The translations under genes were made by a program, and so were the position numbers. Shown here piece by piece: positions 8,701 to 64,000 of a stretch of DNA of 64,000 nucleotides. The first letter of the stretch is position 1; each line of letters starts with the position of its first letter. The notes below the pieces were generated by a model. It was not told where the DNA came from and did not search any database. It was given only the letters and a program-made list of their open reading frames with translations. Origin of the DNA: Cyanobium sp. Cruz-8D1 (GTDB lineage Bacteria; Cyanobacteriota; Cyanobacteriia; PCC-6307; Cyanobiaceae); contig NZ_JAGQCD010000015.1 of assembly GCF_024345975.1 (NCBI RefSeq), positions 1-64,000 of the forward strand, read 5' to 3'.

Positions 8701-10430
8701 CTTTTCCAGAGTTCGGTGGTGGTGGCACCCTGCTGGGAGAAGTAGAGGGTGCCGTTGATGTTGGTGAGATTGAAGCTTTCGTTTGACCAAAAATCGGCAT
8801 TGAAGAAGCTGGTACTGACGCGCACCGTGCCAGCACTGGTGCCATCACTCTTCCAGAGCTGGTAGCCGCTGCCGCTGTTGGCAAAGAAATAGAGCGTGCT
8901 GCCCAGGATCGTGAGATTGAGCGGATCACTGCCCGTTCCGGCCGTGGTGTTGATGTTGCGCACGGTCACGGTGCCGGCAGTGGTGCCGTCGCTCTTCCAG
9001 AGTTCGCGGCCGCTGGCACCGTCGTTGGCGGTGAAGTAAAGGGTGCCGTTGAGGTTGAGCAGCTCCCGTGGGTCGGAACTGGGCGCACCGCTGGCGATCG
9101 CTCGCACCAACACCGTGGTGGCCGCCGTGCCACCGCTCTTGTAGAGCTCGCGGCCGCCGGTGCTGGTGGTGGCTGTGAAGTAAAGGGTGCCGTTGACGTC
9201 GGTGAGGTTGTCGGGCTCGCTCCAGCCGCTCCCCGCTTCGATGTTGCTGATGCGCTGGGTGCCGGCGGTGGTGCCATCGCTCACCCAGAGTTCAAGCCCG
9301 TTGGTGTCGTCGTAGCCGCGGAAGAAGAACTTACCGCTGCTGGCCGCCACAGTGGTGGCAGAGTTGTAGTCCCTAGTAATGGAGCTCAACCCACCACGCA
9401 CCAGGGTGGTGCCGGCAGTGGTGCCGTCGCTCTTCCAGACGCCATAGCCATTGGTGTCGTCGAAGGCGAGGAAGAAGAGGTTGCTGCCCACCACCGTGAG
9501 CCCCCGAACTCCGGATCCCGCAGGGCCTGGGTACACATCCCGCACCAGGCTGCTGGCGCCTGATGCGTCAATGCGCAGCAGCTCGTCGCCGCTGACACCG
9601 TTATCAGCCACCACGTACAGGGCGCCATTGAACACCCGCAGCTGGGAAGGGTTGGAGCCAATCCGCAACGTGTTGATGTCCTTTACCAGGGCCGGGGCTG
9701 GACTGGAGGGATTGGGCAGCGTGGAGATGCGAATCGCCGAGCCGCTGGACACGGGGAAGGTGCTGGGCACCAGCTGGTCGAAGGCGTTGTATTGCTGCCC
9801 ATCCACACTCACCAGCAGCGGAGTGTTCACCGTGCCTGATTGGCCGGAGCGGATGCCGATGGTGGCGCTGCCGCCGTTGTTGAAGTTGCCGTCGCCGCTG
9901 TCGCCATCGACGGCCAGATCCACGTAGTTGAACACGATGTCGCCATTGCTGGCGCCCGTGTTCAGCGACAGGATTACCTGGAAGGTGGCTCCATCGCTCT
10001 CGGGGACGTTATTATTGTAGACATTGTTCCATTCGATCACCAGCTGATCGGTCGTTCCATCACTGTTGAGATCACGGAACTGATAGAGCACCAGATCATT
10101 GACGCTGGTGTTGCGATTGGTGACCCAGTCGTCCCAGAGCGGAGCGATGCGATAGGCCTCATAGCCAAACAAATTGTTGTTGTCCGGGCTCGGCTCAGCC
10201 CCACCGAAGCTGATCAGGCCGTTTTCGCTGACGTATAGCTGGTTGTTGCCGCTGAAGCTGGCGCCATAGAAGCGGAAGACGTTGCTGCCTAGGTCAATCG
10301 CCACCGAGCCATTGGCCACGCTGCTCAGGCCGCTGATGGTGACCACACCGGCGGCGCCGGGCACCAGGTCGATCGCCTGGTAGGCGGTGCTCTCGGCCCG
10401 GTAGCGCGAAAGAGGATCAAATATAGCCAT
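2703..10430 (-). CDS. Giant cell-surface repeat protein (NIDO-like, ELWxSDGT and cadherin-like repeats, RTX-like C terminus)
   Basis: This 2575-residue protein is very probably exported and sits at the cell surface. Residues about 50-225 resemble a nidogen-type domain (SFGGAEPSPDNN, APLWDDW, TFQVIL). Residues about 245-1115 hold roughly 18 repeats of near 48 residues with the consensus ELWKSDGTTAGT, predicted to form beta-propellers. Residues about 1118-2340 hold 12 cadherin-like domains (NENVAA, DFETKSSYS, VNEAPTDL). The last 235 residues have GLGGNDGF, DGGADVD and LTGNAGADTF, like divergent RTX/haemolysin repeats, and there is no N-terminal signal peptide. This fits type I secretion (inference); no secretion genes are in the window. 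A role in adhesion, motility or defence against grazers is possible. The ATG at 10430 has AGGACA upstream. Confidence 0.88.
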   Translation of the reverse strand: MAIFDPLSRYRAESTAYQAIDLVPGAAGVVTISGLSSVANGSVAIDLGSNVFRFYGASFSGNNQLYVSENGLISFGGAEPSPDNNNLFGYEAYRIAPLWDDWVTNRNTSVNDLVLYQFRDLNSDGTTDQLVIEWNNVYNNNVPESDGATFQVILSLNTGASNGDIVFNYVDLAVDGDSGDGNFNNGGSATIGIRSGQSGTVNTPLLVSVDGQQYNAFDQLVPSTFPVSSGSAIRISTLPNPSSPAPALVKDINTLRIGSNPSQLRVFNGALYVVADNGVSGDELLRIDASGASSLVRDVYPGPAGSGVRGLTVVGSNLFFLAFDDTNGYGVWKSDGTTAGTTLVRGGLSSITRDYNSATTVAASSGKFFFRGYDDTNGLELWVSDGTTAGTQRISNIEAGSGWSEPDNLTDVNGTLYFTATTSTGGRELYKSGGTAATTVLVRAIASGAPSSDPRELLNLNGTLYFTANDGASGRELWKSDGTTAGTVTVRNINTTAGTGSDPLNLTILGSTLYFFANSGSGYQLWKSDGTSAGTVRVSTSFFNADFWSNESFNLTNINGTLYFSQQGATTTELWKSDGTTVTKVADLPSYFSFISGFTNVGGILYFNLGDGDASTGRELWKSDGTAAGTMLVRDVVPGTAGSNPSQLTAFNNKLYFAAASENVFTTEELWSSDGTAAGTVSLELDPRTVGSDISTPLLFNGKLYFAANDGVLGKELWTSDGTAAGTQLVKDVRSGEAGSDISALTEMGGNLYFFAYDDINLYGLWKSNGTGAGTTLVRTVDPWAFFNSPIISAGNRIYFNNYSATAGWELWSSNGTAAGTALLRNINPGAADSDPVLVRNAVLGNTFFFTAFDPTNGRELWKTDGTTAGTSLVRNINPGAGDSNPDGLIVFNGALYFAASDPTYGRELWKTDGTTTSRVKNISPGAGGSNPQNFAVFQGSLYFTAVDDTGWQLWKTDGSTAGTVKVTNFNASGPMAQLTAVNNTLFFTNNSGTELWRTDGTTAGTTMMSGAPWASLADSAALSDLTNVNGVLYFAAFDATNGRELWRSDGTAEGTFRVTDLNPQAPLGSGLGNANPSNLIYDASRNKLFFTASDWQSGGEGYGNNELFSIDINNAPTDIALSAGTINENVAANTVVGTFSSTDPDTANTFNYSLVAGSGATDNSAFTIVGNQLQINASPDFETKNSYNIRVRTTDQGGLSFEKALTVTVNNVNEAPTDLVFGGSGTVDENAGPALVLGSLSTIDPDSPTTPQTFAYSLVAGTGDSDNSAFSVIGNQLVLNAPADFETKSSYSLRLRSTDQGGLFTDKVLTIAVNNVNDAPTDLGLSASSINENVAANTVVGSFNSVDQDAGDTFTYSLVAGTGSTNNGAFNILGNQLRITASPNFEAKNSYSIRVRSTDQSGAFVEKVLPISILNVNESPTNISLSASSVAENVAAGTLVGTLSSTDPDAPLTPQSFSYRLITGTGSTDNAAFEIQENELRLRNSPDFELKSSYSIRVQTRDQGNRTFAKVFTISVTNQPEAPTDLALSASSIDENVAANSVVGTFSSTDQDAGNTFTYSLVAGSGATDNSAFTIVGNQLQINASPDFETKNSYNIRVRTTDQGGLSFEKALTVTVNNVNEAPTDLVFGGSGTVNENAAPAQVLGSLSTIDPDSPTTPQSFAYSLVSGSGDGDNTAFSVIGNQLVLKASADFETKSSYSLRLRSTDQGGLFTEKVLTIAVNNLNDAPTDLGLSASSVNENVAANSVIGSFSSTDQDAGNTFTYSLVAGTGATDNGAFNILGTQLRITASPNFEAKSSYSIRVRSTDQSGAFVEKVLPISILNVNETPTNISLSASSVIENVAAGSLVGTLGSTDPDHPLTPQSFSYRLVAGTGATDNAAFEIQENELRLRSVPDFELKSSYSIRVQTRDQGNRTFAKVFTITVTNQAEAPTDLNLSASSLNENVAAGTVVGSLSSTDQDAGNTFTYSLVAGSGATDNSAFTIVGNQLQINASPDFETKSSYSIRVRSTDQGGLSFEKALTVTVNNVNEAPTDLALSGSGTVNENAGPALVLGSLSSIDPDSPTTAQSFSYSLVSGTGDTDNAAFSVVGNQLLLNAPADFETKGSYSLRLRSTDQGGLFTEKVLTIAVNNLNDAPTDLGLSASSVNENVAANSVIGSFSSTDQDAGNTFTYSLVAGTGATDNGAFNILNNQLRITASPNFEAKSSYSIRVRSTDQSGAFVEKVLPISILNVNESPTNISLSASSVAENVAAGTLVGTLSSTDPDAPLTPQSFSYRLVAGTGSTDNAAFEIQENELRLRNSPDFELKSSYSIRVQTRDQGNRTFAKVFTISVSNVNEAPTSGTDFFTATTSVDTLQGLGGNDGFFVATGALNSGDSFDGGADVDQLTLSGGSSTQTLTIDLNQANQFVSLTNGPAFSTTPIFTGFEDVNLSGFAGAGVLTGNSEANRFTASARKDILTGNAGADTFALNSLGHSLLTAFDVITDYSSADLIDAPGAIAATLTNSSGNATSLSNSAIAAVLTSAAFPADSARAFTVTGQSGTFIALNNATAGFRSTTDAILHLSGYTIGALNPVTIL
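3411..7073 (-). repeat. Three exact 1221-bp units, each coding four cadherin-like domains
   Basis: Measured at the PTD motif that opens each unit, boundaries fall at 3411, 4632, 5853 and 7074, so each unit is exactly 1221 bp (407 codons). Each unit carries four domains in the same order A-B-C-D, recognisable by GNQLQINASPDF (A), GNQLVL...ADFETK (B), NQLRITASPNFEAK (C) and ENELRLR...DFELK (D). Bases 5572-5754 and 6793-6975 are identical over about 180 bp, which indicates recent duplication or gene conversion. Copies are not uniformly alike, so exchange has been patchy. Confidence 0.93.
7090..9700 (-). repeat. About 18 tandem ELWxSDGT-type coding repeats
   Basis: Near 145-bp units inside the surface-protein gene code for blocks ending ELWKSDGTTAGT, each with a core like NGTLYFTAND and often NINPGAG. 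Identity between units is moderate, unlike the near-identical cadherin block, so this array is older. The family is known from large secreted proteins of cyanobacteria and other marine bacteria and is predicted to fold as beta-propeller blades. Confidence 0.85.
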
Positions 10431-53438: not shown

Positions 53439-54440
53439 CTAGGGGGTTGGGTAGGTCAGTGGTGAATTGCGGAGTTGTTGTTCTGTCTCAGCCATTCGCG
53501 CTGACACATGGTCGCCTGGCTTGAGCTGCTGGGAGGGTGTTTTTAGTTCGATGCTGAATCCACACGCTGATGTCTTGAGCTGATGCTCGCTCTGGACGTC
53601 TGGCCGCGGCCTGTTGGCCATGCAGACGTGCTCAAGAAGGCCATTGATCCAGATTTCAACCCGTGCTGGAGCATCGGCGTGCCCAACAAAAGCCCAGCCC
53701 TTGATCTGATCTTTTTGTACTTCTTCAAGTCGGCCCTGCCAGCCCTGTTGCTGGCGAACTTCGCGGCGATAGAGATCGGGTGATACTTGGATACTGGCTC
53801 TGCAGGCGGCCTTGCTGGCGGCATCCAGATTGAGCCTCAGGAAGTGATCCAATTGATCAACAAGCAAATCGGGATCCAAAAGGGCCTTTTCATAGGAGAC
53901 CAGCAGACAGGGCCGATCGATTTGATCCAGGAATCTCACCAGGCGGCGGTATTCTCTAAGGCTCTGCGTGAGTTGACTTTGTAAGCTTTCGCCCTTGGAG
54001 ACCTGGCGCCGGCCCGCGATGGCAAGAATGTCGCGAAAGATCACCACAAGGTAGGGACGTCTTAGCAGCCTGAGCAGCGATGGCTCTAGAACCTGACGGG
54101 ATGGAAGCTTGAAGCCCCACAGGTTGTGATCCTGATTGCGTTGTTCAATCAATAGCAGCAATTCCCTGCGCTGTCGTGGCTGCATGAGTGCTGCGAGCTG
54201 TTGATCTTCGTGGGTGCCTGTAGCTGTTTTCTCACCCATGAAAACATCTGCCGCTTTGAGCACGGCCGCCAGCATGGAGGTACCGGAACGTCCCAACCCT
54301 GCCACTACAACAGTGCCTGCTGAGTCTTGATCTTTGGCATTGGCATTGAGAAGCCAGAATCCAGAGTTCCGATGGCTTTCTGCGCCGCCACCCAGCATGC
54401 TGATGGCTTCAGATTTTGGGCGAAACTGCTTGAACATCAT
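53439..54440 (-). CDS. Sulfotransferase-like P-loop protein with C-terminal carbohydrate-associated domain
   Basis: The 333-residue protein opens its conserved part with VVVAGLGRSGTSMLAAVLKAA (about 43-63), the 5-prime phosphosulfate-binding loop of sulfotransferases. FGFKLPSRQVLEP-like and RRPYLVVIFRDILAI segments follow. The last 80 residues (GWAFVGHADAPARVEIWINGLL, ANRPRPDVQ, GFSIELKTPSQQLKPGDHV) match a small beta domain found in many sugar-handling transferases. It may add sulfate to capsule sugars, or only resemble such enzymes. It overlaps the downstream end of the KpsC-like gene by four bases and is probably its operon partner. Confidence 0.72.
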   Translation of the reverse strand: MMFKQFRPKSEAISMLGGGAESHRNSGFWLLNANAKDQDSAGTVVVAGLGRSGTSMLAAVLKAADVFMGEKTATGTHEDQQLAALMQPRQRRELLLLIEQRNQDHNLWGFKLPSRQVLEPSLLRLLRRPYLVVIFRDILAIAGRRQVSKGESLQSQLTQSLREYRRLVRFLDQIDRPCLLVSYEKALLDPDLLVDQLDHFLRLNLDAASKAACRASIQVSPDLYRREVRQQQGWQGRLEEVQKDQIKGWAFVGHADAPARVEIWINGLLEHVCMANRPRPDVQSEHQLKTSACGFSIELKTPSQQLKPGDHVSARMAETEQQLRNSPLTYPTP

Positions 54441-56062
54441 GAATGGATGATCGGCAAGAAGGCGGCCAGGTGCTGCAGGCTGAGGGCGAGGCGTGAGGGT
54501 GGACTGGCCTGCAGCGCCATCAATTGCTCAACAGCCTGTTCAGGAGTGATGAACCAGCCGCAGCGCTGGTTCACATAGCTGGGATAGGCCATCAGGGCCC
54601 CAAAGACCAATTCGTCCAATGTAAGTTGGCGTCCGCGACGCTCGCAGTGCAGTTGATCCTTGGTGAGACCCCAGCCAGCATAAAAGGGCAGTCCATGGCA
54701 GACCACGGGGACCTGTCTGAGCAGGGCCTCAAAGCCTGTGCCGGAAGTGAGAACATGGACGCGATCCACCTGGTTCAGCAGCGTATCGATCGCGATGTGT
54801 GGCAGAACGGCATCCACAACACTTGGAATGGTGCTCTCACCTTCACCCGCTGGCCTTCGCCCATTGGCGACGAAAGGGTGAGGTTTATAGATCAAGTAAG
54901 CGTCGGGCTCTAATCTGCGGGCAGCTGTGGCAAGGGCCAGGTTGGTGCGAATGCCCGGGGCCCCGTAGCGGATGGAGGCATCTTGTTCAACCTGCCCCAC
55001 CACCAGCACCACAGGCTTGTGGTGATAGGGGCGTTTCCAGTTCTGGCCTTTCAGATTGTATTTGCTAAGGGAAGCCGATAGGATCACGGAACGCAGTCGT
55101 TGGGCTCGCAAGTATTCATCGACATGGAAGCAGTGCTCTTGAAGGAATATCTCCAGGGCGCTGGGGCAAGTGGCATCAAAGTAAATTCCAACCGCATCAA
55201 CCGCCAGGGAGAGCGGCAGCTGGAGATGGGCACCCCGTCCGCTGGATCGCAGAAATCCGTCCTCCAGTTGAATCAGTGGTTTTTTCACATCAAGCTGGAG
55301 CGCGCGCTTGTTTGCCGCTCTGCCAAGGACAGCTGAGGCCAGAGCCTTGCGACTGGGCCTGGCGTGGGTTTGGCGAAAGCGCAGTTGGCTTCCTGCCAGG
55401 TAGTAGCGCAATGTTCGGTGATGAAACGGGTGGATCCCGAACGCCTCAATTCGCTCTGGAAAGCGACGTCGTTGCTGCAGTTGCAAGCCGACCAGTTCGA
55501 TGATCTGCTCCGGCTCACAGGCCTGGTGGCGGGTTGGATCCCAATACGTGCTCTTCTCGATCAGCCATCGGTGCAGCAGTGCGAGTTGCCATTGGCGGCT
55601 GGACGGCAGGTGCGGAAGCCCATGCACCGGAAGTTTCCAGATCAGCGCTTCCAGGCCCCAGCGCCAATCATTGGTGATCACTGCAGAAGCTGCTGCCAGA
55701 AGTTGCGCCGGGTGCTGACGTTGGTGTCCAAGATCAAGGACGCTGTCGTTTGGATACAGTTGGTAGGCGAGCCTTTCCATGCGCTGGCCTTGCCGCCGGT
55801 TGGTCAGCAGTACGAAGGGCTGCTCCGGTGGAGTGGCCAAGTGGCGCGGATTCCAGCCACTGATTCCCGAGTGCCGCCAGCAACTGAGTAGCCTCTCGAT
55901 GCGCTTCTCCTGGCTGGGAAGGAGTGGGGAGAGTCCCGGGGATGGTGTGTTCCAGTCACACCGGCTCAAAGGCTGCCATCCCCCCAGCCTGTGGAACCAC
56001 GTAGGCTGCTCAAGTCCGAACAGGGGAGCCAGGGAGTTACCCATCGGGGTGGGCCAGGTCAT
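54437..56062 (-). CDS. kpsC: KpsC-type capsule polysaccharide (beta-Kdo) transferase
   Basis: This 541-residue protein of the Capsule_synth (KpsC/KpsS) family has a complete C-terminal module: LIQLEDGFLRSSGRGAHL near 261, VDAVGIYFDATCPSALEIFL, LSKYNLKGQNW, VGQVEQDASIRYG, YLIYKPHP, VLTSGTGFEALLRQVPVVCHG near 435 and PFYAGWGLTKDQ. The first 190 residues look like the degraded end of a second module (ITNDWRWGLEALIWKLPVHGLP). E. coli KpsC has two full modules that alternate beta-Kdo linkages on the lipid-borne capsule linker. This version may therefore add only one linkage type. It lies back to back with a reductase gene. Confidence 0.85.
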   Translation of the reverse strand: MTWPTPMGNSLAPLFGLEQPTWFHRLGGWQPLSRCDWNTPSPGLSPLLPSQEKRIERLLSCWRHSGISGWNPRHLATPPEQPFVLLTNRRQGQRMERLAYQLYPNDSVLDLGHQRQHPAQLLAAASAVITNDWRWGLEALIWKLPVHGLPHLPSSRQWQLALLHRWLIEKSTYWDPTRHQACEPEQIIELVGLQLQQRRRFPERIEAFGIHPFHHRTLRYYLAGSQLRFRQTHARPSRKALASAVLGRAANKRALQLDVKKPLIQLEDGFLRSSGRGAHLQLPLSLAVDAVGIYFDATCPSALEIFLQEHCFHVDEYLRAQRLRSVILSASLSKYNLKGQNWKRPYHHKPVVLVVGQVEQDASIRYGAPGIRTNLALATAARRLEPDAYLIYKPHPFVANGRRPAGEGESTIPSVVDAVLPHIAIDTLLNQVDRVHVLTSGTGFEALLRQVPVVCHGLPFYAGWGLTKDQLHCERRGRQLTLDELVFGALMAYPSYVNQRCGWFITPEQAVEQLMALQASPPSRLALSLQHLAAFLPIIHS

Positions 56063-56101: not shown

Positions 56102-56896
56102 ATGGCCCAGAGGGTGGTGATTTCGGGAGCAAGCCGAGGCCTTGGTGCCGCCTTGGCCGAGGCCATGGCCGAGCCAGGGGTTGCGCTCTTGCTGTTGGCC
56201 CGGCATGGGGAGAACTTGCGCCAGGTTGCAGAGCGTTGTGTTCAGAAAGGAGCGGAGGTCTATTGGAGGGCCCTTGATGTGCGCCATCGCGAGGCTGTGG
56301 CGGATGCCGTAGAAGCGTTCGCGAGCCGCGGAGGTGTGCATCTTCTGATCGCCAATGCCGGTGTGGTGGCCCTGGAGGACACGCCAACCGACCTGGGCCC
56401 AGATTGGGAGCAACTTCGGGAACAGATTGATCACAACCTCACTTGTACGCTCTCATTGCTCCAGGCGGGACTGAGCCTGCCTATGGACCAGCGACCGCAT
56501 CTTCATTGCGTGGTCGTGAGTTCTCTGAATGCCTTTCTGCCGCTTGGAGAGGCACCAGGTTACTGCGTGGCCAAAGCCGCCCAGCACGCCCTGGTGGCAG
56601 CACTCGATGACTTCTACGCTTGCCGCCCTGAGCCCCGTACCGAAGTCGTTTTCAGTCTGGTATGTCCAGGTTTCGTGGCCACGGCCATGGCGATTGACTA
56701 TCCGGGCCCTCGACCCTTCGAATGCAGTGCTCAACAAGCTGCACAACGAATCCTGCGCGGTCTTCGGGCTGGTCACAAGGTCATTGTGTTCCCCCGTCGG
56801 CTGGCTTTGCTGCTCTGGATCGGGCAACGCTTACCCAAGCCCATCCTGCGCTGGATCCTTGCTCCTAGCCGGGCCTATCGAGGCTCTTGGCCATGA
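56102..56896 (+). CDS. Short-chain dehydrogenase/reductase of the lipid-capsule locus
   Basis: This 264-residue SDR has the NADPH motif ISGASRGLGAALAEAM at 7-22, NAGVVALED, VVVSSLNAFLPLG with the catalytic Ser, and YCVAKAAQHALVAALDD with Tyr155 and Lys159. The late part (CPGFVATAM and LPKPILRWIL) ends with a hydrophobic, membrane-leaning tail. The layout resembles 3-ketosphinganine reductase and related lipid reductases more than FabG. With the neighbouring oxoamine synthase, reduction of a 3-keto sphingoid base is a plausible role (inference). It is the only plus-strand gene between two minus-strand groups, and its end overlaps the GNAT gene by 32 bases tail to tail. Confidence 0.85.
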   Translation: MAQRVVISGASRGLGAALAEAMAEPGVALLLLARHGENLRQVAERCVQKGAEVYWRALDVRHREAVADAVEAFASRGGVHLLIANAGVVALEDTPTDLGPDWEQLREQIDHNLTCTLSLLQAGLSLPMDQRPHLHCVVVSSLNAFLPLGEAPGYCVAKAAQHALVAALDDFYACRPEPRTEVVFSLVCPGFVATAMAIDYPGPRPFECSAQQAAQRILRGLRAGHKVIVFPRRLALLLWIGQRLPKPILRWILAPSRAYRGSWP

Positions 56897-57986
56897 TCAG
56901 ATGAGACATCACCTGCTCACCTCCATAGAGCTTCAGAAAGCGAAGCATCGGTTGGTTATCTTCAAGGATCCAGCCCATGCTGGCTGATGAGCTGCCGAAG
57001 GCCAATCCCTTGTTGATCAAGTGACTCAGCATGGCGATGGACGCTGTCAAAGAGAGTTGGGATCCCTGAAGCTCAGGGATGACCCCTAGAAGAGCGATCC
57101 TGCCATGTTCGCACTGACAGCGCCGCAATCGCAGTAACAACGTTGGCAAGTTCAGGAGCCCAAGCTTGGGGTTCAGGTTTGAGGCGATTTCCTTGGCGTT
57201 GGGGATCCCTAGGCAAATGGCAACAGGACGCCCGTGCAGAGAGACAAAGGAAAGTACTCCCCTCGGAAGCATCGTAAGAACCTTGAGGACCAGGTTTCTA
57301 GCCTCAGCCTTGCTGATCGATTCGAAACCCCAGTTGTTGCTCCAGCATTGGTTAATGAGGGTTTCAACCCACTCGCAACTGCGCTCAAGAGTCGACCACT
57401 TGGCTACTTCCAGTTGAAGCCCTTGCTGGGGCATGGCTTTGAGTAGCGGCGCCATCCGCCGTTGGAGCCGCAAGGCATTGCGTTCATCGGCCTGGAGGAA
57501 CGTCAGCAATCGCTTGGCACAGTAAAACCCGCAGGCCTCAAGATTATGGATGTAATGTCGTGGAGTTCGCGGGTAGCCATACAGATCAGAACAACGATTG
57601 TATTCCAGAAGACCACATTCGTCATGGACGGATGGATTGAAAGGGCCAATCAGAAATTCAGAGCCTCTGCTGCGTGTCCATGTTTCGGCGGTATGGGTTA
57701 GTGCTTGGGCGGCCTCTGGATTGTCAATGCAGTTGTAGAAGCCGAAGCGAGATGGCCCATCTTTTGGATGCATGGCCATGATCCTGCCAATGGTTTTGTC
57801 TCGATCCCTGAGAAGCCAGCGCCTGTGGGGTGTGCGCTTCAGATAGGGATGAAACCAGCTTGAGCTGCGCAAGGCTTCTTCGAATTGGTCGAACCAGTCG
57901 GGAGTCTGTTCGGGTGCCAGCCCGATGCCAAGCCCTGCTCTGAACCGGTGATGATCCAGGGCAGAATGGACTTCAACGACCCGCAT
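56865..57986 (-). CDS. GNAT-type acyltransferase family protein (candidate ceramide-synthase-like N-acyltransferase)
   Basis: This 373-residue protein has a GNAT-like fold in each half. The N-terminal half has RRWLLRDRDKTIGRIMAMHP, RFGFYNCIDNPEAAQAL, GPFNPSVHDECGLLEYN and HYIHNLEACGFYCAKRL, a pattern of a large, mostly uncharacterised bacterial family of about 370-400 residues. From memory this kind of protein occurs next to serine palmitoyltransferase genes and includes the bacterial ceramide synthase type; I could not verify that here. The start overlaps the stop of the oxoamine synthase gene by 14 bases, so it is made directly after it. N-acylation of an amino lipid is the favoured inference. 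Confidence 0.68.
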   Translation of the reverse strand: MRVVEVHSALDHHRFRAGLGIGLAPEQTPDWFDQFEEALRSSSWFHPYLKRTPHRRWLLRDRDKTIGRIMAMHPKDGPSRFGFYNCIDNPEAAQALTHTAETWTRSRGSEFLIGPFNPSVHDECGLLEYNRCSDLYGYPRTPRHYIHNLEACGFYCAKRLLTFLQADERNALRLQRRMAPLLKAMPQQGLQLEVAKWSTLERSCEWVETLINQCWSNNWGFESISKAEARNLVLKVLTMLPRGVLSFVSLHGRPVAICLGIPNAKEIASNLNPKLGLLNLPTLLLRLRRCQCEHGRIALLGVIPELQGSQLSLTASIAMLSHLINKGLAFGSSSASMGWILEDNQPMLRFLKLYGGEQVMSHLIMAKSLDRPG

Positions 57987-59172
57987 TGGTTTTGGTATGG
58001 CGAATGGCGCTGCTTAGATCACTCACGAGGTTGTGGATGCTGTCTCTGGTGTGGTCTGAGCGTACGAACAGTCGAAGACGGCAGCGATTGCTCGGAACAG
58101 TGGGAGGTGCGATGGGATAGACACTCCATCCCTGGGACAGCAGGTGATTGGCTGTGAGAAACGTGTGACGAAGATCGTTCAGCATGATGGGCACGATGCC
58201 CATACCAAGACTTTCGCCCACGTCAAGGCCCGCCCCCTGTGCGGTTTCCATCAGGTACTTGCCGTTAGCTTGGAGAGCGGCTACTCGCTCGGGTTCATTG
58301 CGCATCACAGCCAAAGCGGCACTTGCGGCGGCACAGCAGGGTGCATTGAGCCCCACGCTAAAACTGAAGCCGCTGGCGTGCAGCCTGAGGTGCTGGATCA
58401 CGTCTTGCTTGGCAGCGATGAAACCACCTGTAGAGGCGAGACTTTTGCTGAGAGTCCCCATCCAGATGTCAACCCTTCCGGGATCAATTCCCTGCTGTTG
58501 ATGACTGCCAAGGCCACCAGCACCCAGGACCCCAAGCCCGTGCGCTTCATCCACCATCAGCCAGGCTTGGTGTTGATCCCGCAGCATCAGGAGGCTATGG
58601 ATGTCGGGACTGTCGCCATCCATACTGAAATGCCCCTCCGTGACGATCAGGCAGCGGCGATACTGACGCCGGTGTTTGACGAGCAGCCTTTCAAGGCCTG
58701 CCGGGTCGTTGTGCGGAAAGACCAGGCGACGGGCGCCAGAGAGCTTGACGCCCATCTGGATACTGTTATGAGAATATTGGTCTACAATGACTAAGTCTCC
58801 ATGCTCCACCAAGGCTGCAATGGTGCTGACATTTGTTGCGTGCCCACTGACGAACACCAAGGCAGACTCCTGGCCGTATACCTCAGCAAGCTGGGCTTCT
58901 AGCCAGGCGTGATGGGGCAGCTCCCCAGCCATCAACCGACTTGCCGAGGTGGACAAGCCGTATTCCTTAAGGGCTTCTGAAGCTGCCTGAAGGACAAGAG
59001 GATGGGTCTTGAGGTCTAAGTAGTCATAAGAGGAAAACTGTTTCTGCCCCGGCGCGTTGTCTCGCTCTGCTTTCGAGAAGAAGGGCAGGTCCGATGCTTT
59101 GAGGCCATTGCGCCGCAACAGTCGCTCAACAAGCCTCTGACTGGCAAGTTGGGGAACTTCTTGCGAAAGCAT
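57973..59172 (-). CDS. Alpha-oxoamine synthase (serine palmitoyltransferase/BioF-like, PLP-dependent)
   Basis: This 399-residue fold-type I PLP enzyme condenses an amino acid with an acyl thioester, releasing CO2. Visible are FSSYDYLDLKTHP, GLSTSASRLMAGELPHH, FVSGHATNVSTIAAL, VDEAHGLGVLG and the PLP lysine K243 in GTLSKSLASTGGF. The GTLSKSLAS form differs from BioF and Kbl (GT-x-GKA) and resembles synthases that work with acyl carrier proteins in sphingolipid- or polyketide-type pathways. An ACP gene starts divergently 86 bases away. The ATG at 59172 was chosen because AGAGAAG precedes it and a TATAAT box lies further up; an in-frame ATG at 59208 would start before that box. Confidence 0.85.
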   Translation of the reverse strand: MLSQEVPQLASQRLVERLLRRNGLKASDLPFFSKAERDNAPGQKQFSSYDYLDLKTHPLVLQAASEALKEYGLSTSASRLMAGELPHHAWLEAQLAEVYGQESALVFVSGHATNVSTIAALVEHGDLVIVDQYSHNSIQMGVKLSGARRLVFPHNDPAGLERLLVKHRRQYRRCLIVTEGHFSMDGDSPDIHSLLMLRDQHQAWLMVDEAHGLGVLGAGGLGSHQQQGIDPGRVDIWMGTLSKSLASTGGFIAAKQDVIQHLRLHASGFSFSVGLNAPCCAAASAALAVMRNEPERVAALQANGKYLMETAQGAGLDVGESLGMGIVPIMLNDLRHTFLTANHLLSQGWSVYPIAPPTVPSNRCRLRLFVRSDHTRDSIHNLVSDLSSAIRHTKTNAGR

Positions 59173-59199
59173 TGCTTCTCTTTTTGCTTGGCCACCAAC

Positions 59200-59233
59200 A
59201 TTATACACCAGACTTGCTCAAGTATGCTATGAT
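59200..59233. promoter_or_regulatory. Divergent promoter elements between oxoamine synthase and ACP genes
   Basis: On the minus strand TATAAT (reverse of 59200-59205) can serve as a -10 box for the oxoamine synthase, 28 bases before its chosen start. On the plus strand TGCTATGAT (59225-59233) is an extended -10 box placed 26 bases before the ACP start. No good -35 box was found for either. The gap is AT-rich. Overlapping divergent control of both lipid operons is inferred. Confidence 0.45.
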
Positions 59234-59258
59234 ACCGTGACGAGGCTTTCAATGTATA

Positions 59259-59546
59259 ATGCCTTCCACTGTCAAAAGAATTGATCAAGCCCTTCTTCGT
59301 GAGATGTCCGATGATGAAATCGTGGCAGAGATTGCTGTGATCTTAAGAAGGGTTGTGCCCCACGATATTATTGATATCAAGCTCGACTCATTGCTTGTAG
59401 GCGATATCGGAATCGATTCCCTTGGAACATATGAACTCGTTATGGACGCCGAAGATCGGTTTGGTATTGAGATCGGGGACGATCAATTGTTAGAGCTTTC
59501 AACGGTTAGAGATATCGTTGATTTTGTAAAGGCACAAGTAGAATGA
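59259..59546 (+). CDS. Acyl carrier protein
   Basis: This 95-residue acidic carrier has the phosphopantetheine site GIDSLG with Ser54, preceded by LDSLLVGDI and followed by ELVMDAEDRFGIEIGDDQL, the usual helix II-III pattern. The first 20 residues form an extension not found in housekeeping AcpP. It would hold the growing or finished acyl chain for the ketosynthase encoded next and for the oxoamine synthase encoded divergently. Base composition is far more AT-rich than in most of the window (about 42 percent GC across 59341-59400). Its stop overlaps the ketosynthase start (ATGA). Confidence 0.92.
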   Translation: MPSTVKRIDQALLREMSDDEIVAEIAVILRRVVPHDIIDIKLDSLLVGDIGIDSLGTYELVMDAEDRFGIEIGDDQLLELSTVRDIVDFVKAQVE

Positions 59547-60787
59547 GTCGCTTTGCGGACGTGGCCGTCAGCGGTGTTGGGTGCATCACACCGCTTGGGA
59601 ACAACCCTGATGCGGCTACGGATTCCTACCTCAAAGGCTTAAGTGGTTGCAGTGAACTTTCTGCGCCCTGGGCTTCAGGACTCTCTGCCCGAATCGTGGC
59701 ACCCGTATGTTGTGATACGGAGGAATTACTTGGGGAGTTCCTTGTCAATCGCCTGGATCGTTGTAGCCAGCTGGCTTTGCTGGCGGCCCGTCAGGCCTGG
59801 GCTGCGAGTGGTTTGGGGGCTCTTGGTGTTCCGGGAGATCGTCTGGCCGTCGTGCTTGGCACAGGCATTGGTGGACAATCCACGTTGATTCAGCAATATG
59901 AGCGCAATGCAGCGGGTGCTAGGCGCATTCATCCTCTTGCTGTGGCGATGGCCATGCCGAATGCCGCCTCTGGCCAAGTATCCATAGAGTTTGGTGCCCA
60001 TGGTGGAGCCCATGCGCCAGTCTCTGCTTGTGCCAGTGGTGCTGAGGCGATCGTCTGGGGACAGATGCTGCTGGCAACCGACCAGGCTGACGTGGTCATT
60101 GTGGGAGGCACGGAGGCGGCGATCCATCTCGTCACCATGCGCGGATTTGCAGAGATGCGCGCGCTCTCCTGCCGCCACGGAGATCCGGCAGGTGCCTGCC
60201 GGCCCTTCGCTGCCGATCGGGACGGCTTCGTTGTTGGTGAGGGGGCTGGGGTCCTCATCTTGGAGCGTCTCAGGGATGCCCAGGCTCGGCGGGCCACGAT
60301 CGAAGGGGTGTTGCTCGGGGCCGGGATGACCAGTGATGCCCACCATCTGGCCATGCCCCAGCCCGACGGGCTTCATTCCGCTGCGGCCATGCAGCAGGCC
60401 CTGCGCGTTGCCGATGTGGTGCCCCAGGAGATTTCCATGATCAGTGCCCATGCCACCGGCACTTCCCTGGGCGATCTGGCGGAGGCTCGTGCCGTTCGTC
60501 GGGTGTTTGGTGCGGCGACGGATCAGGTCTGGGTCACCGCTCCCAAAGCTGGTCTCGGTCATCTGTTGGGGGCCGCTGGAGCTGTGGAGTCCATCCTGAC
60601 TCTCAAGGCTTTGCAGAAGGCTGTGGTGCCACGCAGCCTGAATGCCGACCCGCCGGACCCTGAGGTTCCGCTTCGGATCCCCAGATATCACAACGAGCCT
60701 CTGGATGCCCAGCGTCGTCATCTGGCTCTCAAGAATGCCTTCGGCTTCGGTGGTCACAATGTGAGCCTGCTATGGGCGAGCCCTTGA
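59543..60787 (+). CDS. FabF-type beta-ketoacyl-ACP synthase
   Basis: This 414-residue condensing enzyme has the catalytic triad Cys163 (PVSACASGAE), His303 (SAHATGT) and His340 (GLGHLLGAAG), the same numbers as in E. coli FabF. KNAFGFGGHNVSLLW closes the protein. It elongates an ACP-bound chain with malonyl-ACP. Because a dedicated ACP precedes it and no other fatty-acid gene is present, it probably makes a special acyl chain for the capsule lipid rather than bulk fatty acids. The next gene starts 16 bases before its stop, so all are co-translated. Confidence 0.92.
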   Translation: MSRFADVAVSGVGCITPLGNNPDAATDSYLKGLSGCSELSAPWASGLSARIVAPVCCDTEELLGEFLVNRLDRCSQLALLAARQAWAASGLGALGVPGDRLAVVLGTGIGGQSTLIQQYERNAAGARRIHPLAVAMAMPNAASGQVSIEFGAHGGAHAPVSACASGAEAIVWGQMLLATDQADVVIVGGTEAAIHLVTMRGFAEMRALSCRHGDPAGACRPFAADRDGFVVGEGAGVLILERLRDAQARRATIEGVLLGAGMTSDAHHLAMPQPDGLHSAAAMQQALRVADVVPQEISMISAHATGTSLGDLAEARAVRRVFGAATDQVWVTAPKAGLGHLLGAAGAVESILTLKALQKAVVPRSLNADPPDPEVPLRIPRYHNEPLDAQRRHLALKNAFGFGGHNVSLLWASP

Positions 60788-61755
60788 CAACAGCACTCGT
60801 GCTGCATCAAGGGGCTGAATCCAGCCTTGATTACTTTCTGCATTCGGCCTTCCAGGAGCGGCATTGGCGTGCTCTCTTGCTGGATACCCGGCATGGCCCG
60901 CCTGCAGACATGGGCTCTCAGCTGATGCAGGCTCGCGTCATCGTCCTTGTCCGCTACTGGCCAACAGGATGGTGCTGGAGGGGGGTGCTGAAACAGGCCA
61001 GGCGGCAGGGTTTGCGTTGCATCTATTGGATGGATGACGACCTCATGGACCGTTCGGGATTTGATGTGTTGCCGCGCAAGTATGCAGCTAAACTGCGACG
61101 CCTGGCATGGTCACACCGTGCCACCATTCTTGATTGGTGCCAGGCACTTTGGGTGAGCACTCCAACCCTGGCCGAGCGTTATGCCAACCTCAATCCTGAA
61201 TTGATACCTTTGCGCCCTCAAGCCAGGGTGTTGGAACAGATCCGAAGCTTCAGCATCGGCTACCACGGTACAGCGTCTCACCGGCAGGAATTACTCTGGT
61301 TGTATCCACTCATCGAGAAAGTGCAAGATAGGTATTCACATTCGCTGGTGGAGCTGTATGGCGATGCCGAAGTTCGCCAGCTATACAGCTCCCTGCCGAG
61401 AGTTCAGGTGCAGCATCCCATTCCCTGGGAGCGCTATCTCGAAGTCACTGCCGGCAAGCATCTTGATCTGCTGCTTTGCCCACTTCTTGACAACACGTTC
61501 AATGGTGCGCGCGCTGCGGTGAAGTTCTTTGACGCCGTCCGCCTGGGCGCTGTTGGCCTTTACAGTGATCGGCCTCCCTATGCTAACATGGTTATCCATG
61601 GAAATGATGGACTTTTACTGGGCGATCAATACGGCGAATGGCTTGATGCTATTCACCGTCTTTTGAACAACCAGCGAGAGCGCCAACAACTTGCTATTTC
61701 TGCCCGCCGTCGCGCTTTAAGCTTTTTTCCGTCAGGACAAATCGATGAAGCATAA
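60772..61755 (+). CDS. Glycosyltransferase (GT-B, group 1-like)
   Basis: This 327-residue protein has a GT-B layout: IVLVRYWPTGWCWRGVLKQAR, then CIYWMDDDLMDRSGFDVLP, a linker FSIGYHGTASHRQELLWLYP, and a C-terminal half with HLDLLLCPLLDNTFNGARAAVKFFDAVRLG and YANMVIHGNDGLLLGDQYGEW. The last part corresponds to the nucleotide-sugar site, where E-x7-E-like patterns are replaced by NTFNGARAAVKFFDA. It has no signal peptide and no membrane segment. Position between ketosynthase and export genes suggests it adds the first or an early sugar to the lipid anchor or the capsule repeat. It overlaps genes on both sides. Confidence 0.75.
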   Translation: MGEPLTTALVLHQGAESSLDYFLHSAFQERHWRALLLDTRHGPPADMGSQLMQARVIVLVRYWPTGWCWRGVLKQARRQGLRCIYWMDDDLMDRSGFDVLPRKYAAKLRRLAWSHRATILDWCQALWVSTPTLAERYANLNPELIPLRPQARVLEQIRSFSIGYHGTASHRQELLWLYPLIEKVQDRYSHSLVELYGDAEVRQLYSSLPRVQVQHPIPWERYLEVTAGKHLDLLLCPLLDNTFNGARAAVKFFDAVRLGAVGLYSDRPPYANMVIHGNDGLLLGDQYGEWLDAIHRLLNNQRERQQLAISARRRALSFFPSGQIDEA

Positions 61756-62851
61756 ACTCCCGCGCGCAACACATATCCTTATGGTCTTTGGCGTCTGCGG
61801 GGCGCTCGCCTTCGGTCAGGGGGCAGCGTCCCAACCGTTAGGAAAGCCGCCAAGCGGATTTAATCGTGACTTGCGCTACCGGCTGGGTCCAGGTGATCGG
61901 ATTCGCATGTCCGTGTTCAAAGTTCCGGGCTATGAGGGAATTGCCGAAGTGATCGCTGATGGCACGGCGAGTTTTCCCCGCATCGGCAGCGTCCCTGTGG
62001 CCGGACTCACCCTGGATCAGGCCCGAAAGCGCATTGGTGAAGCCTACGGGCGTTTCCTGCGTCGCCCCAGTGTGTCCCTGGATTTGGTGTACGCCCGCCC
62101 CATGCGCATCACCGTCACCGGTGAAGTTCAGCGGCCAGGTTTATACAGTCTTGACCGATCAGGCAGCTTTCAGTTGGAAAGTGCAGGCGCTACAGGTGGC
62201 TCCTCCCAGCCCACCACCATTCAGGCCAGTGGTTGGCCCACGCTGGTTGAAGCGATTCAGAAGGCTGGTGGGATCACAGCCCGTGGTGATCTTCGAGCTG
62301 TTGTACTCAAGCGTCAGGTGGGAGCGGGCCCGCAACGGGAACTGCGGGTCAACTTCTGGGAAGCTTTGCGAGATGGCCAACAGATTGAGAATCCCATTTT
62401 GTTTGATGGTGATGTCGTTATGGTCACAGCGGCCGATGAGTTCAGTTACGAAGATCTGATCAAGATTGGTGCATCAACGTTTGCTCCAGATACGATTGGC
62501 GTGAATGTGGTGGGTGAAGTGGTTCGTCCTGGCAGCATTCGCGTACGGGCTAATAGTCACCTCAGCAATGCTGTGCTGGCAGCTGGTGGTTTTGTGAAAG
62601 AGCGTGCCAGTGTCAGTAACCTTCAGCTCTTTCGCCTTGAACCGAATGGCACCGTCACCCAAAAGCAGGTGCGTTTCAGTCCTTCCGACCCCTTAGGTAG
62701 TGATAACAATCCTGCCCTGCGCGAGGGTGATGTCGTGGTTGTGAACCGCAATCGAAGGGCCGCTGTCAATGATGCGGTGCGAGCCACGCTTGAGCCTGTA
62801 GGGCCAATTATCAACGCTGCATCTCTGCTGCGACTTCTGGGGGCTAATTAG
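61745..62851 (+). CDS. Outer-membrane polysaccharide exporter (Wza/KpsD-like OPX)
   Basis: This 368-residue protein has a signal peptide (HILMVFGVCGALAFGQGAAS). The polysaccharide export domain follows at about 45-130 (YRLGPGDRIRMSVFKVPGYE, GTASFPRIGSVPVAGLTLDQ), then SLBB-type domains (MRITVTGEVQRPGLYSL, IGVNVVGEVVRPGSIRVRAN). An extra internal part carries WEALRDGQQIENPILFDGDVVMV. It would form the periplasmic/outer-membrane channel for the capsule, working with KpsM/KpsT encoded just downstream. No lipobox is seen. Confidence 0.9.
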   Translation: MKHKLPRATHILMVFGVCGALAFGQGAASQPLGKPPSGFNRDLRYRLGPGDRIRMSVFKVPGYEGIAEVIADGTASFPRIGSVPVAGLTLDQARKRIGEAYGRFLRRPSVSLDLVYARPMRITVTGEVQRPGLYSLDRSGSFQLESAGATGGSSQPTTIQASGWPTLVEAIQKAGGITARGDLRAVVLKRQVGAGPQRELRVNFWEALRDGQQIENPILFDGDVVMVTAADEFSYEDLIKIGASTFAPDTIGVNVVGEVVRPGSIRVRANSHLSNAVLAAGGFVKERASVSNLQLFRLEPNGTVTQKQVRFSPSDPLGSDNNPALREGDVVVVNRNRRAAVNDAVRATLEPVGPIINAASLLRLLGAN

Positions 62852-62859
62852 TCATTTTT

Positions 62860-63666
62860 ATGGAGGAAGCAAAGTCTCGGTTACGCCGATTGAGTGGGTT
62901 TGAGATCCAGTGGCGTGTCGTCAATGCCTTAGTTTATCGAGAGCTGCGTCGTCGCGTCAGCGATGTGCAGGGTGGCTTTTTGGCCGTGCTGCTGGAGCCT
63001 GTCGGTCAGATCGCTGTCTGGGCCGCCCTACGCTTAATCATAAGGCAGGCCAGCTCGGTCAATAATCTGAATATCTGGCTCTTTCTTGCTACCGGAGTCA
63101 TCCTTTTTAATCTTTATGCCAGGGTTGCCGCCCATGGGCTGACGACGATGGAGGCCAACAAGGCCCTGTTCTTTTATCGTCGCGTCAAACCGATTGACAC
63201 CGTTCTGGCCAAGGCGATTGAGGAGTTGGGTCTCTACTCGTTGGCGGCCATTATCGTTTTTGGTCTTGTCTGGGCTTATCTCTACAATCTTGTTCTTCAG
63301 AATCTGCCCCTGCTGGTAATCTCCTTTGTGCTGATGGCACTGCTTGCCGTGGCCAGTTCGTTGCTTTCTCTGGTGGGCTCTTATTATTTTCCGAATCTGA
63401 AGCAGGTCTTGTCCTGGATCAATCGAGCCCTCTACTTGGCTTCAGGCGTGATCTATGCCCCGATGGATATTCCTCAATTTGCTAGAGACTTTCTTGTTTG
63501 GAACCCCCTTCTCCAGTGCATTGAACTAGCACGAAAGGCCTTGAGCATTGATTATCAGATCCCATCGCAAGTGACGTTGAGCTACCCGGCTGGATTTGCG
63601 CTTGTTTACTTGAGCCTTGCCCTTTGGTGCTATACTAACAATGAGAAAGTCCTGATTCGCCGTTAG
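62860..63666 (+). CDS. kpsM: Capsule ABC transporter permease (KpsM-like)
   Basis: This 268-residue ABC-2 type permease has about six membrane helices: LEPVGQIAVWAALRLIIRQ, IWLFLATGVILFNLYARVA, LYSLAAIIVFGLVWAYLYNL, LPLLVISFVLMALLAVASSLLSL, then AGFALVYLSLALWCY. The N-terminal YRELRRRVSD and the central FFYRRVKPIDTVLAKAIEEL are typical of KpsM/CtrC/BexB proteins. It forms the inner-membrane channel that moves lipid-linked capsule to the periplasm. It begins eight bases after the exporter gene; the ATPase gene follows after four bases. Confidence 0.93.
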   Translation: MEEAKSRLRRLSGFEIQWRVVNALVYRELRRRVSDVQGGFLAVLLEPVGQIAVWAALRLIIRQASSVNNLNIWLFLATGVILFNLYARVAAHGLTTMEANKALFFYRRVKPIDTVLAKAIEELGLYSLAAIIVFGLVWAYLYNLVLQNLPLLVISFVLMALLAVASSLLSLVGSYYFPNLKQVLSWINRALYLASGVIYAPMDIPQFARDFLVWNPLLQCIELARKALSIDYQIPSQVTLSYPAGFALVYLSLALWCYTNNEKVLIRR

Positions 63667-63670
63667 GTTA

Positions 63671-64000
63671 ATGATACGCGTCAACTCGCTTACCAAAAGT
63701 TACCTCTACAAAGGTAAGCGAAAGCGTGTCTTGGATGATTTGAGTTTTGAGATCGCTGGCGATGAATCAATCGCGGTGATCGGTGCCAACGGGGCCGGGA
63801 AATCCACTTTACTGCAGTTGCTGGGCGGCATTGATGTGCCGGATCGTGGCAAGATCCAATGCGATGGCACGATTTCCTGGCCCGTCGGTATTGAGGGTGG
63901 TTTCCAGGGAAGCCTCACCGGCAGGGAAAATGTGACATTCGTGAGCATGATTTATGGCGAAAGGCATGAGATTGACGATCGCATCAAGTTTGTTGAAGAC
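63671..64000 (+). CDS. kpsT: Capsule ABC transporter ATPase (KpsT-like), cut by the window end
   Basis: The first 110 codons are present. They carry NSLTKSYLYKGKRKRVLDDLS, Walker A IGANGAGKSTLLQLLGG at about 36-52, and GTISWPVGIEGGFQGSLTGREN, the W-P-V-G...F-x-x-x-L-T-G-x-E-N block that is diagnostic for KpsT/CtrD/BexA polysaccharide ATPases. The signature and Walker B motifs lie beyond the window. It powers KpsM. Confidence 0.95.
   Translation, partial: MIRVNSLTKSYLYKGKRKRVLDDLSFEIAGDESIAVIGANGAGKSTLLQLLGGIDVPDRGKIQCDGTISWPVGIEGGFQGSLTGRENVTFVSMIYGERHEIDDRIKFVED

Follow-up and report, generated by a model that had tools for sequence, protein, structure and literature searches.

The stretch analyzed here (the window) comprises 64,000 nt of contig C16 of the 3.97 Mb genome of the cyanobacterium Cyanobium sp. 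Cruz-8D1 (NZ_JAGQCD010000015.1, positions 1 to 64,000). Toward its right-hand end, genes for a putative lipid pathway are embedded in a capsule export locus. These encode a classical short-chain dehydrogenase/reductase (SDR) of the WcbP/RkpH type, recognized by SDR models and a candidate 3-ketosphinganine (or 3-keto-ceramide) reductase (56102–56896, forward strand); a candidate N-acyltransferase, a GNAT protein assigned by homology to the YghO/bacterial ceramide synthase (bCerS) family (56865–57986, reverse); an alpha-oxoamine synthase (AOS) assigned by trees and approximately unbiased (AU) tests to a capsule/polyketide synthase (PKS) clade, a candidate serine:acyl-carrier-protein condensing enzyme (57973–59208, reverse); a dedicated acyl carrier protein (ACP) with a DSL phosphopantetheine site (59259–59546, forward; PF00550 E 5e-12, scoring below threshold with the housekeeping ACP models); and a FabF-type ketosynthase (KS), a second copy beside the housekeeping FabF (59543–60787, forward). 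A sequence-only reading of this DNA had proposed these five genes, and gene-by-gene examination upheld them. We lean slightly toward the interpretation that the locus makes a sphingoid- or ceramide-type lipid and that an ABC-transporter capsule is built on, and exported with, that lipid.

Organization and conservation of the locus

A KpsC-type beta-Kdo (3-deoxy-D-manno-oct-2-ulosonic acid) transferase gene (54437–56062, reverse; PF05159 E 2e-35; KpsC structure 6mgd in the PDB, E 2e-60) lies at the far side of the SDR, so that capsule genes flank the lipid genes on both sides. Its product has an intact C-terminal domain and a shortened N-terminal domain, residues 49 to 520 aligning to 119 to 663 of full KpsC at 40%. 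Next to it is a gene for a sulfotransferase-like protein (53439–54440, reverse) that is syntenic in three genomes and shows a trace of Sulfotransfer_3 at the cut-off (Pfam E 5e-6). On the other side, ACP and KS stand, as the sequence-only reading had described, in an overlapped run with a glycosyltransferase (60772–61755; weak PF13524, syntenic), the outer-membrane polysaccharide export protein OPX (61745–62851; Poly_export and SLBB domains), the ABC-transporter permease KpsM (62860–63666; NF050053 E 6e-36), and the ATPase KpsT (63671–64000). Only the start of KpsT is in the window; in the continuation (locus L009), it is followed by a KpsE-like gene, a second glycosyltransferase (GT2), and a PhyH dioxygenase. 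Read from left to right, the sulfotransferase-like and KpsC genes are on the reverse strand, the SDR is on the forward strand, GNAT and AOS are on the reverse strand, and ACP through KpsT are on the forward strand.

Overlaps amount to 14 nt between AOS and GNAT, 32 nt between the convergent GNAT and SDR genes, and 4 nt between ACP and KS; the KS gene runs into that of the glycosyltransferase. The annotated AOS start is a GTG, but an in-frame ATG at 59172 is the likelier start because homology to the orthologs begins at residues 7 to 16. If translation begins at this ATG, the AOS–GNAT and ACP–KS units stand back to back across an 86 bp AT-rich gap (59172–59258). This gap would be a divergent promoter region common to the AOS–GNAT and ACP–KS–export units, and it has sigma-70-like sites, by consensus match, on the AOS strand.

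An identical 14-gene order occurs in the window genome, in Cyanobium sp. Aljojuca 7A6 (G579), and in a third genome (G608), and is absent from the other 397 family members searched. GNAT is present in 3 of 400 family genomes, all from the genus Cyanobium, and AOS in the same 3 of 42 genus members; an AOS query against a collection of genome contigs matched two loci and no more. Aljojuca 7A6 is the nearest named relative with the locus (AOS 89% identical). Across the three loci, amino acid identity ranges from 74% to 94% per gene, and third-position changes are ~3 to 13 times commoner than second-position ones in every gene tested, which indicates that each tested gene is maintained by purifying selection. 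The five lipid genes are confirmed as real and intact.

Two observations concern other parts of this region. A PhyH-type dioxygenase gene, possibly for an acyl-chain hydroxylase, adjoins the AOS capsule loci of both Pseudomonas (L065:11832-12875) and Cyanobium (L009:13585-14466). At 2703–10430 the window also encodes a candidate giant adhesin of 2575 residues, in which at least seven cadherin domains are recognized.

Phylogenetic placement of the oxoamine synthase

The best NCBIfam model for AOS is bioF (350 bits, under the cut-off of 426); the serine palmitoyltransferase (SPT) models score 181 to 269 bits, with cut-offs of 500 to 670. The top PDB match is the Sphingobacterium SPT, near full length. 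Identity as a sulfonolipid (cysteate) synthase was not favored, at 134 bits versus 198 for SPT in the PDB search. Among plasmid records, the best matches (47–49%) are AOS enzymes of Methylobacterium, Shinella, Sinorhizobium, and Paraburkholderia, plus some Streptomyces fusions. The capsule loci that house the proteobacterial relatives inspected also encode a type I PKS, an SDR, PF05159 proteins and/or an ABC exporter (the Methylobacterium context was established by phmmer). The module is wider than the window genome, as had been suspected: both AOS and SDR match those of proteobacterial capsule loci.

The earlier reading had named a phylogeny against SPT, BioF, Kbl, and PKS-linked synthases as a check. 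In maximum-likelihood trees, AOS falls within neither BioF nor Kbl and sits inside a capsule/PKS AOS clade (support 100/99 and 100/100), which groups with SPT, away from BioF and Kbl (91/95, or 98/94 without long branches). The second tree omitted the long-branched 5-aminolevulinate synthase and cyanobacterial AOS sequences and left the capsule clade unchanged; the trees lack PfSgaB, RkpG, and WcbT. An AU test rejected a clade of the Cyanobium AOS with BioF (p=2.5e-5), and identity as BioF or Kbl is ruled out by the tree. We accordingly assign AOS to the capsule/PKS clade on the SPT side, apart from canonical SPT. The catalytic residues K255, H147, D220/H223, and R379 are present in the alignment with 3a2b. 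PfSgaB, a PKS-linked AOS, has SPT activity, measured in 2025, with a near-exclusive preference for L-serine over alanine and glycine, and homologous PfSga-type clusters number in the thousands, mostly in Burkholderia (PMC12134224).

Cyanobacteria also have a separate AOS–GNAT pair. GNAT homologs of this kind occur in 36 of 386 genomes, with AOS adjacent in 13 of the 20 loci inspected (L041, L042, L044, L045, L047, L048, L051-L056, and L059). In this pair, the AOS stands well apart from both SPT and BioF and the GNAT is related to YghO; no capsule genes were seen beside most of the loci. The pair possibly belongs to an unrecognized aminolipid pathway. Descent of the Cyanobium genes from this pair was ruled out by 19 to 30% identity and by its distinct, long-branched AOS group. 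Elsewhere, AOS of the capsule/PKS clade forms the C-terminal part of large fusions in Riflebacteria and Streptomyces (L104:7904-11050, L110:5227-10050), and in Planktothrix it is fused to a type I PKS (L102).

Candidate reductase and N-acyltransferase

The SDR has YxxxK and SSL motifs and scores 111 to 117 bits against capsule-locus SDRs of Paraburkholderia, Methylobacterium, and Pseudomonas, with weaker matches to Acidisoma and rhizobial SDRs. Identity with CerR, a reductase of the NAD-dependent epimerase type, was ruled out; phmmer gave no match to CerR of Escherichia coli BL21 or Sphingomonas. A classical SDR of the capsule type is in line with the proposal that PfSgaC is a KDSR-like reductase (PMC12134224).

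Neither Pfam nor NCBIfam has a model that matches GNAT at E≤1e-3. In a translated search, however small its identity (23%), E. coli YghO matches it over 98% of its length (E 2e-16). Five homologs linked to spt score 90 to 133 bits, among them those from the spt clusters of Roseomonas (133), Diaphorobacter (115), Sphingomonas (102), and E. coli BL21 (90). An NWGF motif is common to GNAT and the spt-cluster copies and is missing from the commoner cyanobacterial GNATs. What had been a guess at the family is thus confirmed by homology to YghO/bCerS proteins: on these comparisons GNAT is a divergent, full-length family member and a candidate N-acyltransferase. YghO is listed as the homolog of CC_1154, an acyltransferase of Caulobacter (PMC9386255), and bCerS has been described as an acyltransferase of the cytoplasm that acts on 3-ketosphinganine (PMC11087976). 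An AlphaFold2 model of GNAT alone had a predicted local distance difference test score of 36.5 and was not used.

The enzymatic half of the earlier proposal, that each step of sphingolipid synthesis has a candidate at this locus, is well supported, with corrections. AOS is neither BioF nor Kbl and GNAT is of the bCerS family, but AOS lies outside the canonical SPT clade and the SDR is not CerR. The best reading is that the pathway fits a ceramide type reached through a capsule/PKS-clade AOS and a KDSR-like SDR, not through the Caulobacter set.

The acyl carrier protein and ketosynthase as a probable shared acyl supply

With the FabF model TIGR03150 (cut-off 494), the locus KS scores 404 bits versus 631 for the housekeeping FabF on contig C23. 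Ten further Cyanobiaceae genomes have a KS and ACP related to these between OPX and KpsC; the neighbors there are a KpsS::PlsC fusion and an OlsB-type (PF13444) GNAT, and no AOS was found near the pair in these ten capsule loci. ACP and KS had been counted as part of the AOS lipid set; they are present, and the ACP is dedicated, but the pair is not tied to the AOS module, since related loci combine it with a different acyl-acceptor module. Because ACP–KS is kept while its neighbors differ, the acyl-acceptor module is the variable part of these loci. In this family, ACP and KS appear to serve as a general source of acyl chains for capsule lipids. We see in the variable acceptor module the strongest hint from comparison that the capsule's lipid is the product of the AOS/SDR/GNAT set.

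The conserved block in the ten genomes (L088-L097, other genera; e.g. L088:3881-12978) contains KdsB, full KpsC, KpsS::PlsC, KS, ACP, the PF13444 GNAT, and OPX. This block, in which an acyltransferase is fused to the Kdo-priming enzyme, suggests a dedicated anchor that is either an N,O-acylated, ornithine-lipid-like aminolipid or a phospholipid. The closest ACP–KS relative (L087:8688-10254, KS 60%) is found outside capsule loci, where an ABC exporter and an LpxB-type gene adjoin it.

Kdo enzymes and a co-occurring desaturase

Contig C28 carries the only KdsA and only KdsB of the genome above cut-off, a second KpsC-type protein, glycosyltransferases, and a fatty-acid desaturase. The genome has two PF05159 loci, both KpsC-like, and KpsS was not detected in this genome, which is rated 100% complete. 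KpsS starts the Kdo chain on (lyso-)phosphatidylglycerol (PG) and KpsC extends it (PMC7694667); the enzyme that defines the usual anchor is therefore missing here. A phylum-wide survey of 2015 considered a Kdo linker doubtful for cyanobacterial polysaccharides (PMC4594306), in contrast to the joint presence of KdsA, KdsB, KpsC-type enzymes, and an exporter in this one cyanobacterial genome. At L119:5166-7592, KdsB is fused to an N-terminal region of ~540 residues that has no Pfam or NCBIfam match.

The C28 desaturase (L119:11362-12315; G000:C28:39361-40314) lies beside the only kdsA and kdsB and the KpsC-type gene. Its N- and C-terminal motifs resemble what we take to be those of sphingolipid delta-4-desaturases. 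It is present in 3/3 genomes with AOS and in 1 of the 39 others of the genus (that one 88% complete), with one distant match among other sampled members of the phylum. By simple counting that ignores kinship, the overlap with AOS has a chance of 4/11480 (3.5e-4), a figure that exaggerates the association because the genomes are relatives.

A proposed capsule lipid and its alternatives

We propose the following pathway. The dedicated ACP and KS would supply a special, probably elongated acyl-ACP, which AOS would condense with an amino acid (L-serine being the likeliest) to give a 3-keto long-chain base. The SDR would reduce the ketone, and the YghO/bCerS-type GNAT would N-acylate the amine before or after this reduction; the C28 desaturase may add a double bond. 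KpsC-type transferases would then add Kdo to a free hydroxyl of the lipid, glycosyltransferases would extend the chain, and KpsMT, KpsE, and OPX would export it. Formation of a sphingoid-type base is probable, and its N-acylation to a ceramide type is a somewhat less secure prediction. For use of the ceramide-type lipid as the capsule anchor, which the gene neighborhood, the missing KpsS, and the co-occurrence suggest, we regard the case as evenly balanced. A bolder version, in which a Kdo linker sits on an N-acylated, desaturated cyanobacterial ceramide rather than on lyso-PG, and AOS-derived aminolipids are anchors across the whole rkp/wcb capsule family, is tentative and falls a little short of that.

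Several points weigh against this proposal. It is drawn from gene content, homology, clade membership, and conserved gene order; substrates, step order, and anchor role are all inferred, the last from the gene neighborhood. AU tests reject a clade of the Cyanobium AOS with canonical SPT (p=0.002) and do not reject one of the whole capsule clade with BioF (p=0.069). Membership of PfSgaB, the AOS with SPT activity, in the capsule/PKS clade is an expectation. GNAT is only 23 to 27% identical to its nearest characterized or spt-linked relatives. The Lipid_DES-like N-terminus of the C28 desaturase, found in 4/4 orthologs, scores 18 to 21 bits, under the Pfam cut-off of 23. Kinship with spt-cluster desaturases was rejected for want of a pairwise match, and neither a plasmid match nor a solved-structure relative was found, so that its reading as a sphingolipid delta-4-desaturase rests on sub-threshold Pfam matches and on sequence motifs taken to be typical of such enzymes. 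Its co-occurrence with AOS is confined to close relatives and may reflect shared descent.

Alternatively, the module could make a membrane lipid of sphingolipid or ceramide-like type that stays free, or a glycolipid of the envelope, and have no anchor role; its place in the locus would then reflect joint acquisition of two envelope functions. The PfSgaAB products (PMC12134224) are free lipids, as are the canonical sphingolipids of bacteria, and SDR, GNAT, and AOS are transcribed apart from the export operon, save for the shared divergent promoter region. Yet in 3/3 genomes KpsC and the exporter flank the lipid genes, ACP–KS forms one overlapping run with the glycosyltransferase, OPX, KpsM, and KpsT genes, unrelated bacteria have a similar combination in their capsule loci, and KpsS is missing. 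We consider a free lipid unlikely, if far from negligible. More doubtful is a non-sphingoid amino ketone or amino alcohol lipid, derived from alanine, glycine, or another amino acid and used as the anchor or attached to the polysaccharide as a long-chain decoration. The AOS substrate cannot be read from the sequence, because the catalytic residues checked are common to SPT, BioF, and other AOS enzymes and so are not diagnostic of SPT; the APPTVP loop, moreover, is nearer to BioF than to the PAVP of most capsule AOS. On the other hand, the AOS clade is on the SPT side, PfSgaB prefers serine, and a DES-like desaturase co-occurs.

An ordinary group 2 capsule on lyso-PG, in which AOS, GNAT, and SDR modify sugars or form some unrelated metabolite, would account for KpsC, KdsA/KdsB, and KpsMTE/OPX, which are those of Kdo-linked group 2 systems. 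We judge it improbable: the KpsS such a capsule would use was not detected, GNAT comes from a lipid N-acyltransferase family and not from sugar acetyltransferases, and a dedicated ACP and a second KS are present. That AOS is a misannotated BioF or Kbl of biotin or threonine metabolism can virtually be dismissed, bioF being the best-scoring NCBIfam model but under its cut-off, with BioF placement rejected and the genome's own BioF elsewhere (L002).

If the sphingoid- or ceramide-anchored capsule is real, it would be a new type of capsule anchor and a rare genetic basis for cyanobacterial sphingolipids. As of 2022, reports of these covered only two ceramides, found in Scytonema julianum and Moorea producens, and Nostoc punctiforme proved to make none (PMC8895605); the present locus is a concrete sphingolipid-type gene set in a named cyanobacterial strain. 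In the limited literature searched, we found no capsule anchor reported to be a sphingoid or a ceramide and no description of the rkp/wcb capsule anchor, nor did we find the lipid role of the AOS and SDR set settled.

Comparison with known systems

The locus is best classed as a variant of the rkp/wcb capsule-lipid module in a cyanobacterium. The rkp-1/wcb modules (Sinorhizobium meliloti rkpA-J, Burkholderia wcbR-T), compared through relatives rather than through the chromosomal rkp-1 and wcb loci themselves, likewise unite a same-clade AOS, an SDR, a PKS/fatty acid synthase (FAS) acyl source, KpsC/KpsS-type proteins, and an ABC exporter in one locus. There the acyl source is an adjacent giant type I PKS/FAS (RkpA/WcbR), wcbR and rkpA encoding type I PKSs within clusters for capsule export (PMC3908369), whereas Cyanobium has a discrete ACP and FabF-type KS. 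Cyanobium also adds a bCerS/YghO-type GNAT, that is, a ceramide-synthase-family N-acyltransferase, to the AOS and SDR set of such loci.

PfSgaAB(C) of Pseudomonas fluorescens MYb115 shares a PKS-type acyl source, an AOS, and a KDSR-like SDR, but the accessible part of the report describes no capsule locus and no bCerS-type GNAT (PMC12134224). The canonical ceramide pathway (Caulobacter Spt/bCerS/CerR; E. coli BL21 spt-acp-epi-FAAL-yghO) has in common an AOS, a dedicated ACP, and a bCerS/YghO-family GNAT; it differs in its SPT-clade AOS, CerR, and fatty acyl-AMP ligase, where Cyanobium has a non-SPT-clade AOS, a classical SDR, and a KS. With the group 2 capsule of E. coli K5, the locus shares KpsC, Kdo supply, and KpsMT/KpsE/OPX export, but in K5 the anchor is (lyso-)PG, with priming by KpsS (PMC7694667), an enzyme not found in the Cyanobium genome.

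A plasmid capsule locus of Acidisoma sp. PAMC 29798 likewise combines AOS, SDR, and a bCerS-type GNAT with KpsMTE and PF05159 proteins. Its AOS falls in the same capsule/PKS clade, and one of its two annotated capsular biosynthesis proteins matches the window KpsC. It differs in having a fatty-acid hydroxylase and no ACP or KS seen nearby. To our knowledge, this locus is unstudied; it is an independent parallel to the Cyanobium set.

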